Origin: Noviherbaspirillum denitrificans
Lineage (GTDB): Bacteria > Pseudomonadota > Gammaproteobacteria > Burkholderiales > Burkholderiaceae_D
NCBI RefSeq assembly: GCF_002211445.1
Contig: NZ_LSTO01000005.1
Span: forward strand, 1-55,206
DNA: 55,206 nucleotides
Reading direction: 5' to 3'
Under the pieces are notes generated by a model. That model was not told the DNA's origin and searched no databases. It saw only the letters and a list, made by a program, of their open reading frames with translations. This document shows, in pieces, positions 1,978 through 54,776 of the stretch; positions within the stretch are counted from its first letter, which is position 1, and the number at the start of each line of letters is the position of its first letter. The translations under genes were made by a program, and so were the position numbers.

Positions 1978-2011
1978 GCCAGCAATACAGGCATAAATCG
2001 TTGGACGAAAA

Positions 2012-2042
2012 AAAAGGGCGTTGTACCGTACAACGCCCTTTT
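2012..2042 (-). terminator. parB terminator containing parS-like site 6
   Basis: The 15-bp palindrome GTTGTACCGTACAAC (2020-2034) is the core of a perfect 31-bp palindrome with 15-bp arms running from AAAAGGGC to GCCCTTTT. Read on the minus strand it begins 19 bp after the parB stop, and the distal arm runs into eight T residues (A run at 2008-2015 on the plus strand). That is a textbook intrinsic terminator. One sequence therefore appears to be both the ParB binding site and the end of the parAB transcript. Confidence 0.85.
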
Positions 2043-2060: not shown

Positions 2061-3041
2061 TCAACTTTGCAATAGCTCGGCAAGAAGGAGCCGCAGTTTC
2101 TCCAGCTTCCCTTCACTCAATGCGCCACGCGCAAACTTCACTTTCACTCGTCCGCCATCTGCGTGGATCTCCGCCATTGCCTTGCCCCCCACAGTCAGCT
2201 GTTCAATCTTGCCCGGCGCAGCGCCGATCCCGAGGAGAATTTCCAGCACTTCCTTGCTGGTCGGCTTGCCTTCCGGCATAGACGCCAATTCACGCGCCCG
2301 CTCGATAACGCCTTCTGGATCATTCTGGATCGCATCGCTCAATAACTTCGCCCAGCGATACTGCAGTTCGCGCGCAGAAGGAAAAGCAGCCACCACTTCC
2401 TTCGGCAGGTCCGCCAGCTTCAGCGCCTTGCTGATATTTCCTTTGTCCACCCCGAGTTCGGCGGCGAGTTCGCCCAGTGACGCAAACAAGCCTTCGCCCA
2501 GTGCCCGGCGATACATCAATCCTTGCTCCCACGGCGACAGGTCCAACCGCGCCCGGTTTTCACGGTCCATTTCCTTGAACAAGTCTTGCTCGCTCAATTC
2601 CTCGACCAGCGCCAGTACCGGCAGACCGAGTTCGAGGCACGCGCGGTGGCGGCGATGGCCGAACACGATTTCATACGTGCCCGCCTCCCCTGCCCGCGGT
2701 CGCACCTTGATCGGCTGCACATTGCCGCCGGCTGACTTGATCTCTTCCTTCAGCGCTTCGAATTCCGGCGTGCCGAACCCCTCTTCCAGCCGGTTTGCCC
2801 ATTTCGAGCGCACCACCTTGGCTGGATCGAGGAGCCGTGCCACAGTCGCGCCGTCATACTGTTTCAGGCGTTCTTCCAGTTCGGCGAGGCGCTCGTTGTT
2901 TTCCTTCATCAGCGCGTTCACCATCAGCATCTGGCCAGGTCCGGTCTTGAGCGGACCTGCGGGAGCAGTCGCGGACGGCGCCTTCGCCGGCGGCACCAGC
3001 AAGTCAGCGGTTTTCTTGGCGAGACGATCCTTGATTGACAT
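2061..3041 (-). CDS. parB: ParB/RepB-family partition protein
   Basis: ParB binds centromere sites and loads as a clamp that ParA moves, segregating sister replicons. The 326-residue product has a coiled N-terminus (about 45-62), the ParB N-terminal CTPase-type domain with the arginine motif GHRRHRA at 128-134 and ENRARLDLSPWE at 161-172, and a helix-turn-helix at about 188-213 (LAAELGVDKGNISKAL). The ATG at 3041 has a good ribosome site (GAAGGAG) inside the end of parA, with 1 bp between the genes. The six GTTGTACNGTACAAC palindromes downstream are the likely binding sites. The transcript ends in a hairpin that contains one of them. Confidence 0.95.
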   Translation of the reverse strand: MSIKDRLAKKTADLLVPPAKAPSATAPAGPLKTGPGQMLMVNALMKENNERLAELEERLKQYDGATVARLLDPAKVVRSKWANRLEEGFGTPEFEALKEEIKSAGGNVQPIKVRPRAGEAGTYEIVFGHRRHRACLELGLPVLALVEELSEQDLFKEMDRENRARLDLSPWEQGLMYRRALGEGLFASLGELAAELGVDKGNISKALKLADLPKEVVAAFPSARELQYRWAKLLSDAIQNDPEGVIERARELASMPEGKPTSKEVLEILLGIGAAPGKIEQLTVGGKAMAEIHADGGRVKVKFARGALSEGKLEKLRLLLAELLQS

Positions 3042-3042
3042 C

Positions 3043-4218
3043 TCAAACTCCTTCGCTCAGTTGGGCCGCCCAGGCGTTGCGGATCGACACTTCCACCAGG
3101 TCGTTGACCCGATCGTACGCGTCACGCGCGCGGCTGTAAGTCTTCAGGCTACCATCGTACTTGCTGATGTCATACACCGTGCCGAACTCGGCGGAGCTGG
3201 ACGAGGTCACTGCCGTCTTCGGAATCTCGACCGGCAGCACCTTTTCCGCATACGTTGCGGAAATCCACGAACGCACGACGTCGCTGGCGACATCCGCCGA
3301 ATCAACGCGCGCCAGCAGCACATGGATGAAATCAAAGGTTTTCGCAATACCGGCGCTTTCTACCAGGTTGGATGCGAGGTCGCTGAACAAGCTCCAGAAC
3401 TGCGCCGAACTGGCAAAGTCCAGCGCGTTCGGCGGCAACGGCACCATCAGCGCGTCAGCCGCCATGAAGGCATTGATGGTGACGTAGGAGAGGGAAGGGG
3501 GCGTGTCGATGATGATCACATCGTAGTCGTCGCGCACATCTTCCAGTCCAAGGTTGAGCACATCCCAGAACTGGAATTCCGGATCCTTCATCTGGCGGGA
3601 AGGCAGCACGAATTCCGCGGAGAACAAGCTGGATGCAGCGGCGACCAGGTCGACGCCATTCCAGTAGGTTTGCTGGATCGCCGGACGAATCGTCGTCGTT
3701 TCTCCGTACACCAGCGGCGCGATGGTTTGATCTTCGGCGACCTCGGTATCAGGCATAATGCCAAACAGGGTCGTGAGCGAACCTTGCGGGTCAGCATCCA
3801 CCACCAGCACCCGGTGGCCACGCAGGCTCAAGCCTTGTGCCAGCACCATCGCCGTCGTGGTCTTGCTGACACCACCCTTGAAATTACCGATCGCGATCGT
3901 GATCGCCCGCGCGCCCTCCGGCCGCAGTGATGCCGCACGGTAATGACGTACCCAGGTCCGCGCTTCTTCAAGCGTGAATTCACGGCGCGAGCCTTTGTCA
4001 TTGAGTTGTCCCGCAGGCAGATCCCCTTTGCCAATGCGGTAAGACACCTGGCCCTTGTCGATGCCGCACAACGTGGCGAGCTGCGTCAGGGAAAACACCG
4101 GCGGCGCCTTGACGGCACTCGGTGCGAGCATGCGGGAGCGGATCTGGTTCACCATTTGCGCCGCGCGCTCTGCCTGCTCAACGATGTCACTGATGTGAAT
4201 CTTCTGGAAGTCGTTCAT
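3043..4218 (-). CDS. parA: ParA-family partition ATPase with N-terminal DNA-binding domain
   Basis: ParA is the Walker-type ATPase that moves ParB-parS complexes over the nucleoid. The 391-residue product has the deviant Walker A motif KGGVSKTT at 114-121, DADPQGS at 141-147 and the Walker B region DVIIIDTPP ending near 241. The first 100 residues carry a MerR-like helix-turn-helix (LATLCGIDKGQVSYRIGKGDLP), as in type Ia plasmid ParA proteins that repress their own operon. The ATG at 4218 lacks an obvious Shine-Dalgarno sequence, so the message may be nearly leaderless. It is transcribed away from the origin and followed 1 bp later by parB. Confidence 0.95.
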   Translation of the reverse strand: MNDFQKIHISDIVEQAERAAQMVNQIRSRMLAPSAVKAPPVFSLTQLATLCGIDKGQVSYRIGKGDLPAGQLNDKGSRREFTLEEARTWVRHYRAASLRPEGARAITIAIGNFKGGVSKTTTAMVLAQGLSLRGHRVLVVDADPQGSLTTLFGIMPDTEVAEDQTIAPLVYGETTTIRPAIQQTYWNGVDLVAAASSLFSAEFVLPSRQMKDPEFQFWDVLNLGLEDVRDDYDVIIIDTPPSLSYVTINAFMAADALMVPLPPNALDFASSAQFWSLFSDLASNLVESAGIAKTFDFIHVLLARVDSADVASDVVRSWISATYAEKVLPVEIPKTAVTSSSSAEFGTVYDISKYDGSLKTYSRARDAYDRVNDLVEVSIRNAWAAQLSEGV

Positions 4219-4472: not shown

Positions 4473-4664
4473 GGTGAGAAGCTTTGGGACCAAGGGTGAG
4501 AGCTTTTGGGGGCTTGGGTGAGTGCTTATAGGAAATTCGGTGAGAACATTTGGGGTGCGCGGTGAGGGGATATGGGAACGCTGCGACAGGTGCAGCCAGC
4601 AGGGGCAGTCGCTGTCCAAAGTGAGAATTTTTGGGATGCTTTGGTGAGGTGAGAAGAACTGGGA
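4473..4664 (+). repeat. oriV: Origin iteron array, seven 17-bp repeats
   Basis: Iterons at 4473, 4495, 4517, 4539 and 4561 have an exact 22-bp pitch, about two helical turns, so Rep would bind on one face of the DNA. Two more lie at 4620-4636 and 4648-4664. Consensus GGTGAGAANNTTTGGGA; best copies GGTGAGAAGCTTTGGGA (4473) and GGTGAGAACATTTGGGG (4539). The array sits directly upstream of the initiator gene, as in Rep_3 iteron replicons, and marks the replication origin. Confidence 0.93.
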
Positions 4665-4740: not shown

Positions 4741-6159
4741 ATGTCCGAACAGCCGAACGCCACGAAGCGCGCGTCGGAGGGCGAGCGGAAACTCACTCTC
4801 GTCGACCACGACCACCTGCTACGCAAGCCGGTGAATACGCTCGCCATCGTGCCGAAGTCGGAAAAGATCACGGTCACGGCGCGCAAGATCTATAACGTGA
4901 TGCTGCAGTTCGCGCAGCGCCAGGGCGCCGACAAGGACCGCTACCGCGCGCGGCTGGCCGAGATCACGGTCGGTATCGACTTCAATTCCAACAACACCGA
5001 GATCATCAAGCAGTATTTCCGGCAGATGGCGACCACCGGCGTCGAATGGCAGTCGCCGACGACAGGGGAGGGCGCGCGCTGGAGCATCTCGGCGCTGATC
5101 GCACATGCCGACCTGATCCAGAAGGGCAACGAGCTGGTGCTGGAATGGAGCTATGCGCCCAACATCAAGCACGAGTTGCTGGATCCGCAGCGCTTCGCGA
5201 AGATGTCGCTGCAGGTGCTGGCCATGCTCAACACGATGGCGTCACTCGTGCTGTATGAAATCTGCTGCCGCTATGCGGACAACCCGAGCGGCCTGACCGC
5301 GCGCCAGCCATGGTCCTGGTGGCGGCCGGTATTGACCGGCGCGCCCGACAGCCCGACCAGCGCCTACCAGGAATACAAGATCTTCAACCGCGACGTGGTG
5401 AAGAAGGCGCTCAAGAAGGTCAATGAAGTCACCGACCTCGAGGTCGAGCTGATCGAGCACAAGGCCGGCCGTTCGGTACAGGACTTGCAGTTCAAGGTGC
5501 GGCGCAAGGCGCAGAAGGAAGAAGCGCCGGAGCGGGAGATCGAGCCGGTCGACCTGAAAACCATCGGCGCCGCGATCCGTCTCGGCATCGCGCAGGACAA
5601 GGCAGAAAAGCTGCTGCTCAAATACGGCGCGCCGGCGATGGACGAAGCGCTGGGCGTGCTCGACGAACGCCAGCGGCGCGCCGACATGGAGCCGGTGCGC
5701 ACACCGGAGAAATACCTGCGTTCCATCCTGCAGTCCGGCCAGTTCGGCTTGCCGAAGGAAGAGCAGGCCGCGCCGCCGCCGGTGGTGTACGACAAGAAGG
5801 CCGAACGCCTGAAACTGATCGAACGCTTCATGGCGCAGAAGCGCCAGCAACTGAGCGAAATGTTCCAGGAAATGCCGGTCGAAGATCAGGACGAATGGAT
5901 CGCGCGCTTCGACCGCGAGGCGCTGGCCGCGACTGGCGCGGTGCGCAAGGCATTCCAGACCAAGGGGCTGGCCAGCCCGATCGTCAGGCCGGCCTTCTTC
6001 AAGTTCCTCGGCAATGCGGTGTGGCCGGAAGGCTGGGACAAGCCGACCGACAGCGACCTGGTCGATCTTGCGCTGCAGGCCAAGGCCGAAAGCGAACGCG
6101 CGGTGGAAGCCAAGGCGCCGGCGCGCACCCGCGTCGGCTTGGCAATGCGCAAGACCTGA
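4741..6159 (+). CDS. rep: Replication initiator protein, Rep_3 (RepB/WH1) family
   Basis: Initiates replication by binding the iterons upstream. The 472-residue protein begins, after a short polar leader, with the WH1 winged-helix dimerisation region (about 20-150, including NTLAIVPKSEKITVTARKIYNVML) and a second winged helix (about 150-260, with SLVLYEICCRYADNPSG and EYKIFNRDVVKKALKKVNE). These are typical of RepA, RepE and TrfA-like initiators. About 190 residues follow beyond the usual length of small-plasmid Rep_3 proteins, rich in charged helices. A long initiator is common on megaplasmids and chromids of Burkholderiales. The upstream operator suggests autoregulation. The tRNA-Leu gene begins 51 bp after the stop. 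Confidence 0.93.
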   Translation: MSEQPNATKRASEGERKLTLVDHDHLLRKPVNTLAIVPKSEKITVTARKIYNVMLQFAQRQGADKDRYRARLAEITVGIDFNSNNTEIIKQYFRQMATTGVEWQSPTTGEGARWSISALIAHADLIQKGNELVLEWSYAPNIKHELLDPQRFAKMSLQVLAMLNTMASLVLYEICCRYADNPSGLTARQPWSWWRPVLTGAPDSPTSAYQEYKIFNRDVVKKALKKVNEVTDLEVELIEHKAGRSVQDLQFKVRRKAQKEEAPEREIEPVDLKTIGAAIRLGIAQDKAEKLLLKYGAPAMDEALGVLDERQRRADMEPVRTPEKYLRSILQSGQFGLPKEEQAAPPPVVYDKKAERLKLIERFMAQKRQQLSEMFQEMPVEDQDEWIARFDREALAATGAVRKAFQTKGLASPIVRPAFFKFLGNAVWPEGWDKPTDSDLVDLALQAKAESERAVEAKAPARTRVGLAMRKT

Positions 6160-54609: not shown

Positions 54610-54776
54610 GACTGCCTCCTGGGAAAAATGGAGCGGAGCTCCGGTTGAACAGTACAAATCCGTCCACGAACCCTGTTTGCAAAATTCGGACCGGCCCTTG
54701 ACCGCCGCATGTCGCCTGCGGCATGCGAATTGCTACATCCACCGAAACCGAATCATCACTCTGAGTGGAGAAAGAG

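Follow-up and report, generated by a model that had tools for sequence, protein, structure and literature searches.

The window analysed here is the whole of a 55,206-bp contig of Noviherbaspirillum denitrificans (assembly of 5.8 Mb in 49 contigs, 97.9% complete), and it is probably a plasmid or other secondary replicon. Close to one end it carries a partition operon, a divergent replication initiator gene and a cluster of short palindromes past the 3' end of parB (Table 1). The two partition genes are separated by 1 bp, and a Walker-type ParA with an N-terminal extension stands beside a helix-turn-helix (HTH) ParB in one operon, an arrangement that we take to be that of a Type Ia ParABS system. 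In profile comparisons with solved chains, the ParB of the window matched ParB/Noc, SopB and KorB, with best E-values of 5.8e-18, 1.8e-11 and 2.1e-6, respectively.

Table 1. Features of the partition locus, with positions in the window.
Feature	Position	Strand	Basis or remark
parS site (putative), arm 8, unfused	1067-1081	n/a	Motif search and hairpin scoring
parS site (putative), arm 10, good fold, without T tract	1411-1425	n/a	Motif search, scoring and RNA fold
parS site (putative), arm 7, unfused	1808-1822	n/a	Motif search and hairpin scoring
parS site (putative), one mismatch in the 15-mer	1857-1871	n/a	Inside decayed duplicate at about 1849-1928
parS site (putative), arm 7, unfused	1963-1977	n/a	Motif search and hairpin scoring
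A8 on the + strand	2008-2015	T8 tract on the parB strand (-)	Direct sequence reading
parS-centred hairpin, perfect 31-bp palindrome	2012-2042	-	Part of the probable parAB intrinsic terminator
parB-proximal parS core (putative), 15-mer GTTGTACCGTACAAC	2020-2034	n/a	Palindrome and specificity code
parB, 326 aa, ParB_N and SoPB_HTH domains	2061-3041	-	ORF and domain/profile match
parA, 391 aa, AAA_31 from residue 107, hence N-terminal extension	3043-4218	-	ORF and domain match
Rep_3-type replication initiator, divergent from parAB	4741-6159	+	ORF and domain match

The site cluster and the element past parB

The 15-mer GTTGTACNGTACAAC occurs in six copies, all between 1067 and 2034. The initial annotation had listed six palindromes; the six sites are there, five of them perfect, but the one at 1857-1871 carries a mismatch. 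At up to one mismatch these six copies, in a single cluster of about 1 kb, are the only ones in the genome, where the reversed pattern, used as a control, had no match. Relaxing the search of the window to three mismatches yielded seven matches, the seventh at 54644 with two mismatches, and none of 100 shuffles reached seven. Iteron-like repeats GGTGAGAANNTTTGGG, a pattern picked by eye, were also seen at 983-1320 and 4473-4663. They have nine matches in the window at up to three mismatches against 3.8 expected, a number reached in 2 of 100 shuffles. Three of the matches lie within the parS cluster or next to it, and the other six separate parA from the Rep_3 gene.

The copy nearest to parB is flanked by GGGC (2016-2019) on one side and by GCCC (2035-2038) and TTTT (2039-2042) on the other, and is the core of an odd, perfect palindrome of 31 bp centred at 2027. 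Eight Ts come after the hairpin on the parB strand, and four or five of them are able to pair with the opposite flank. This anatomy, proposed in the initial annotation, was borne out by the sequence and by folding: RNA of the minus strand from 2004-2046 reaches -21.3 kcal/mol, compared to -7.7 +/- 2.5 kcal/mol for shuffles (z -5.4; 0 of 200 as good). Only the spacing needed correction, as 18 bp rather than 19 bp separate the parB stop (2063-2061, minus strand) from the palindrome. With a stable, G/C-rich hairpin and a T tract just past the gene, 2008-2042 has the features expected of an intrinsic terminator and is predicted to act as one. Folds at the other sites gave z of -4.1 at 1411, -2.0 at 1857 and -0.2 to -1.5 at the remaining three.

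A generic terminator scan of the window did not return the element at 2008-2042 and found four terminators against a shuffle mean of 6.5; the scan may have missed it by extending the stem through the T tract. Two scorers were used in its place, one for a hairpin with a T tract after it and one for a hairpin centred on parS, and the element is recovered with them. The fused site of the window also passes terminator scoring on the opposite strand.

The segment at approximately 1849-1928 is a decayed copy of the parB 3' end and its fused element (blastn 60/80 identical, E 3e-12, palindrome included); when the two aligned palindromes are taken out, 16 of 2000 simple shuffles score as well as the alignment. 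This duplicate retains the inner 13 bp of the site unchanged, but its stem has deteriorated (-13.5 kcal/mol) and its row of Ts is interrupted. The survival of the core alongside decay of the stem and T run fits two separable selections, as far as a single case goes.

ParB specificity and the identity of the palindrome

The set of 84 related parB loci comprises the window, three loci from a first family search (hits in 12 of 294 genomes, counting that of the window) and the best 80 of 230 relatives. Nine duplicate loci (L003, L005-L010, L012 and L013), taken from the length and match of their contigs to be on the same contigs as L015 and L017-L024, were dropped, and a genus-level search gave no additional loci. 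A palindrome of the form NNNNAC-N-GTNNNN is recurrent, or lies just past parB, in 71 of the 84 loci, the window among them; the other 13, which have neither a recurrent AC-N-GT motif nor a single one next to the parB end, stand outside the site counts. The inner AC of the half-site is fixed by the search pattern, and the remaining four letters vary among groups.

Across the 71 loci this variation follows the ParB recognition domain. Half-site position 4 tracks ParB residue 202: T goes with N (36 loci), A with L, Q or A (27 loci), G with D (five loci) and C with Q or V (three loci). Position 3 tracks residue 199: G goes with D at 51 of 52 loci, and the 19 loci with T, C or A have other residues. 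Both residues lie within the SopB-type HTH, and they are the top ParB columns for positions 4 and 3 (normalised mutual information of 0.83 and 0.85, calculated with kinship ignored). For positions 1 and 2 the fit to ParB columns is poorer, at best 0.60 and 0.51. A tree-based version of the test, with just three usable pairs per position, gave no contrary pair and a median p of 0.25. Because the half-site follows HTH residues 199 and 202 over so many loci, the 15-mer is very probably parS. Six sites confined to the side of parAB, with half-sites that appear to follow the HTH, would also suit the cis-acting site of a Type Ia system.

The ParB of the window is assigned by homology only, and the palindromes might instead be operator-like sites of another DNA-binding protein next to an ordinary terminator. 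Against this, the sites are confined to the side of parAB in this genome, and residues 199 and 202 of the HTH are the ParB columns that best fit half-site positions 3 and 4; we give this alternative almost no credence.

Recurrence of the fused element in related loci

According to the initial annotation, a lack of the fusion in relatives would speak against it. Each site was scored on each strand for a hairpin centred on it, with at least 8 pairs, at most one mismatch and a folding energy no weaker than -10 kcal/mol, and for a T tract after the hairpin. Forty-seven of the 84 parB loci have a putative parS within 100 bp downstream of parB, and at 26 of these 47 proximal sites (24 of 41 when ParBs are clustered at 90% identity) the site is the centre of a terminator in the parB direction, such that about one third of the related loci examined are fused. 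The same score was not reached at any of 161 other sites (0/97 further downstream, 0/64 upstream or intragenic; Fisher p 1.4e-20, uncorrected for relatedness). On the opposite strand, 12 of the 47 proximal sites passed, and four of the 161 others, all in one locus (L084). In 32 loci a proximal parS is accompanied by a scored terminator that begins within 110 bp, and in 26 of these the two are one element. The proposal of a probable ParB site fused to a probable parAB terminator thus gains support from the relatives as well as from the specificity code, without being universal: 21 of the 47 proximal sites are unfused, 15 with no scored terminator at all and six with a separate one. Within the window's own clade the fusion is missing in four of 13 loci (L016, L018, L022 and L023), and in L018 a separate, standard terminator hairpin comes directly after parS.

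The fused loci use nine half-sites (TTGTAC, ATGTAC, TTGAAC, TAGAAC, TTATAC, TTGGAC, ATTCAC, TGGAAC and TAGGAC), which means that the element is retained or arises again as specificity shifts; the stem bases vary too. On a ParB tree, at least 14 changes of the fused state and at least 17 of the motif were counted, although these are rough counts from a quick LG+G4 tree with long branches, in which gain and loss look alike. As judged from sequence, the fusion is labile, yet kept or re-made across ParB specificities.

A long palindrome could also simply be a longer ParB site, of higher affinity or able to form a cruciform, with the Ts incidental. Outside the window's clade, many unfused or distal sites do have arms of 9-13 or more, and seven unfused proximal sites (L027, L047, L065, L068, L077, L080 and L088) have arms of 10-15 with no T tract that passes. 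The window's clade presents a different picture. Its nine fused sites are 100% Watson-Crick paired at arm positions 8-12, with four types of pair at position 8, whereas the 27 distal downstream sites pair at 15-37% there, near background beyond position 7. Since the fused set was chosen by stem and T tract, its own pairing values are partly a matter of construction, and it is the contrast with the distal sites that is informative. Distal sites unpaired beyond the core, next to fused sites that are paired, indicate that the stem extension is not part of parS in this clade. The T tract is also one-sided (T in 75-88% at positions 15-18 of 24 sites, against A in 33-54% on the opposite side), and within the 84-locus set it passes in the parB direction at proximal sites only. 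We therefore rejected a merely extended parS for the window's clade; elsewhere the ParB site may account for some of the extension. As an account of the fused element as a whole, the extended site seems very improbable.

Sites inside parB and possible minimal centromeres

At 30 of the 71 loci there is at least one parS-like site within parB itself. These intragenic sites fall at two recurrent spots, ParB alignment columns 172/183 and 379-384 (for example at -166 from the parB stop in L061, and at -663 and -165 in L041), and occur in all three reading frames, encoding differing peptides (LNGST, GGGTV, VVPYN, GVGPSN). More sites were seen some 1.0-1.1 kb ahead of the parB stop, close to where parA and parB meet, a placement that is approximate.

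Some centromeres may be very small. In eleven of the 26 fused loci, the fetched flank (1.4-3.0 kb) shows no downstream site besides the fused one. For L056 a 3.6-Mb assembly has the fused site as its sole match, although this is a metagenome-assembled genome that may be incomplete and the control pattern also has one match. In L049, L070 and L074 the sole other match near the fused site lies within parB, with one mismatch; L070 has two more one-mismatch matches elsewhere and six control matches, and L074 one control match. It is conceivable, if rather doubtful, that in part of the family the centromere has almost no DNA of its own and consists of the parB terminator and a site in the parB coding sequence. 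ParB would then load both within its own transcription unit and at the 3' end of that unit, so that parAB transcription and the assembly of partition complexes would each act on the other.

Named plasmids and known partition systems

The same score was applied to 21 named plasmids, taken from 40 listed among 2406 matching records; nine of the 21 had no recognised motif. Four of seven proximal sites were fused and none of 24 others (p 0.0011). Three of the plasmids, one of them fused, had been inspected beforehand, and with these excluded the proximal count is three of five. The four fused plasmids are Hydrogenophaga pBPS33-1, a plasmid of "Shinella sp. XGS7" (organism label unverified), a plasmid of Comamonadaceae OTU4NAUVB1 and one of Rhodoferax antarcticus, and their ParBs share at most 73% identity with any ParB of the 84-locus set. 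Apparent other classes of palindrome past parB were noticed by eye, and left uncounted, in L050, L054, L108, L109, L110 and L113; they include GGCAACC-N-GGTTGCC, CAT-N-ATG and, in L108, TTC-G-GAA with a T tract. In a Sphaerotilus plasmid (L112, 2455-3768) the neighbours of parB are annotated as Wadjet JetD and an SbcC/MukB-like protein.

Plasmid F resembles the window in its long ParA, its SopB-type ParB and its repeated sites past parB. Its repeat region is presumably sopC, the centromere of sopABC. It differs in that the first full inverted repeat, TGGGACC-NN-GGTCCCA, lies at +132 from the sopB stop and no terminator was scored within 200 bp. In phage P1, parS is annotated as ending 4 bp from parB and so adjoins the gene as in the window. 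P1 had been considered as a fusion-free model, a use that was dropped once scoring revealed a parS hairpin with four Ts. This hairpin holds the distal ParB boxes at +60 to +92 past the parB stop (L096; -19.7 kcal/mol, RNA fold z -7.7) and ends in TTTTACC. Unlike the window's element it has just four Ts in its tail, and no terminator is among the record's listed features there; it may be a weak case of a parS-terminator. Of four P1 relatives that were scored, Cronobacter phage JK004 and P7 fail, a Pantoea plasmid has a different hairpin at +18 to +38, and a plasmid of Vibrio pelagius passes, by way of a hairpin that need not contain parS.

Three further systems come close in one respect or another. 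The Bsr partition systems are likewise found on Burkholderiales replicons and have a short palindromic parS with replicon-dependent specificity, but their site is an even palindrome of 16 bp with a central CG, whereas that of the window is odd and 15 bp long and those of its family are odd, 13-15 bp, with an AC-N-GT core (PMC5450999). In plasmid RA3 (IncU) the partition operon korA-incC-korB-orf11-parS ends in an experimentally tested rho-independent terminator with parS adjoining; the terminator is described as following orf11 and parS is named separately (PMC7414963). The nearest principle is that of the Neisseria DNA uptake sequences, which as inverted repeats double as rho-independent terminators, but these are spread genome-wide and are not a centromere beside the gene of their own binding protein (PMC2397512). 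Among the listed titles and abstract openings of open-licence papers, none describes a parS-terminator fusion.

A probable shared centromere site and terminator

We consider it likely that the element is put to two uses, with the parB-proximal parS forming the apex of the parAB intrinsic terminator and serving passively as a ParB loading site, and with no need for coupling between the two. The starting points are the sequence itself, its recurrence, its direction, its restriction to the proximal site and the agreement between palindrome and ParB helix. From these we infer that ParB binds the element, that transcription terminates there in the cell and that the one does not affect the other. 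As duplex DNA it would be one of the centromere sites at which ParB dimers load. As RNA, the palindrome with its G/C-rich base and Ts would fold into a terminator and set the end of the transcript, such that parAB transcription would halt at the edge of the site cluster. Such an element could arise where a parS palindrome just past parB gains a G/C base and a T tract and becomes the terminator of the operon. The sequence is probably shared for economy, a ParB palindrome being a ready-made hairpin. A plausible benefit is the insulation of the downstream site cluster from parAB transcription, but the loci with a site inside parB indicate that transcription across a site is tolerable.

In line with the initial annotation, bound ParB might instead alter termination or the 3' ends of the message, as a roadblock or by changing the pausing of RNA polymerase, in which case the level of partition complex would feed back on parAB output and parAB transcripts would clear the site. 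Polymerase must cross the ParB site in order to make the hairpin, the fusion is common and is spread across ParB specificities, and in the 11 fused loci with no other downstream site the terminator is the main non-coding centromere site. However, the six proximal-parS loci with a separate terminator and the 15 with none scored speak against regulation of this kind, and dual use without coupling is simpler and explains the anatomy. We thus regard coupled regulation as unlikely.

For the annotation of Burkholderiales plasmids, the fused element offers a lead, as parS can be sought in the parB terminator, where there is one, and the P1 parS hairpin may extend the principle beyond the window's ParB family. 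A natural element of this kind makes the sharing of DNA between the ParB clamp and RNA polymerase directly testable. What this family appears to hold is a centromere site and a terminator in one sequence, kept or re-made repeatedly as ParB specificity changed.
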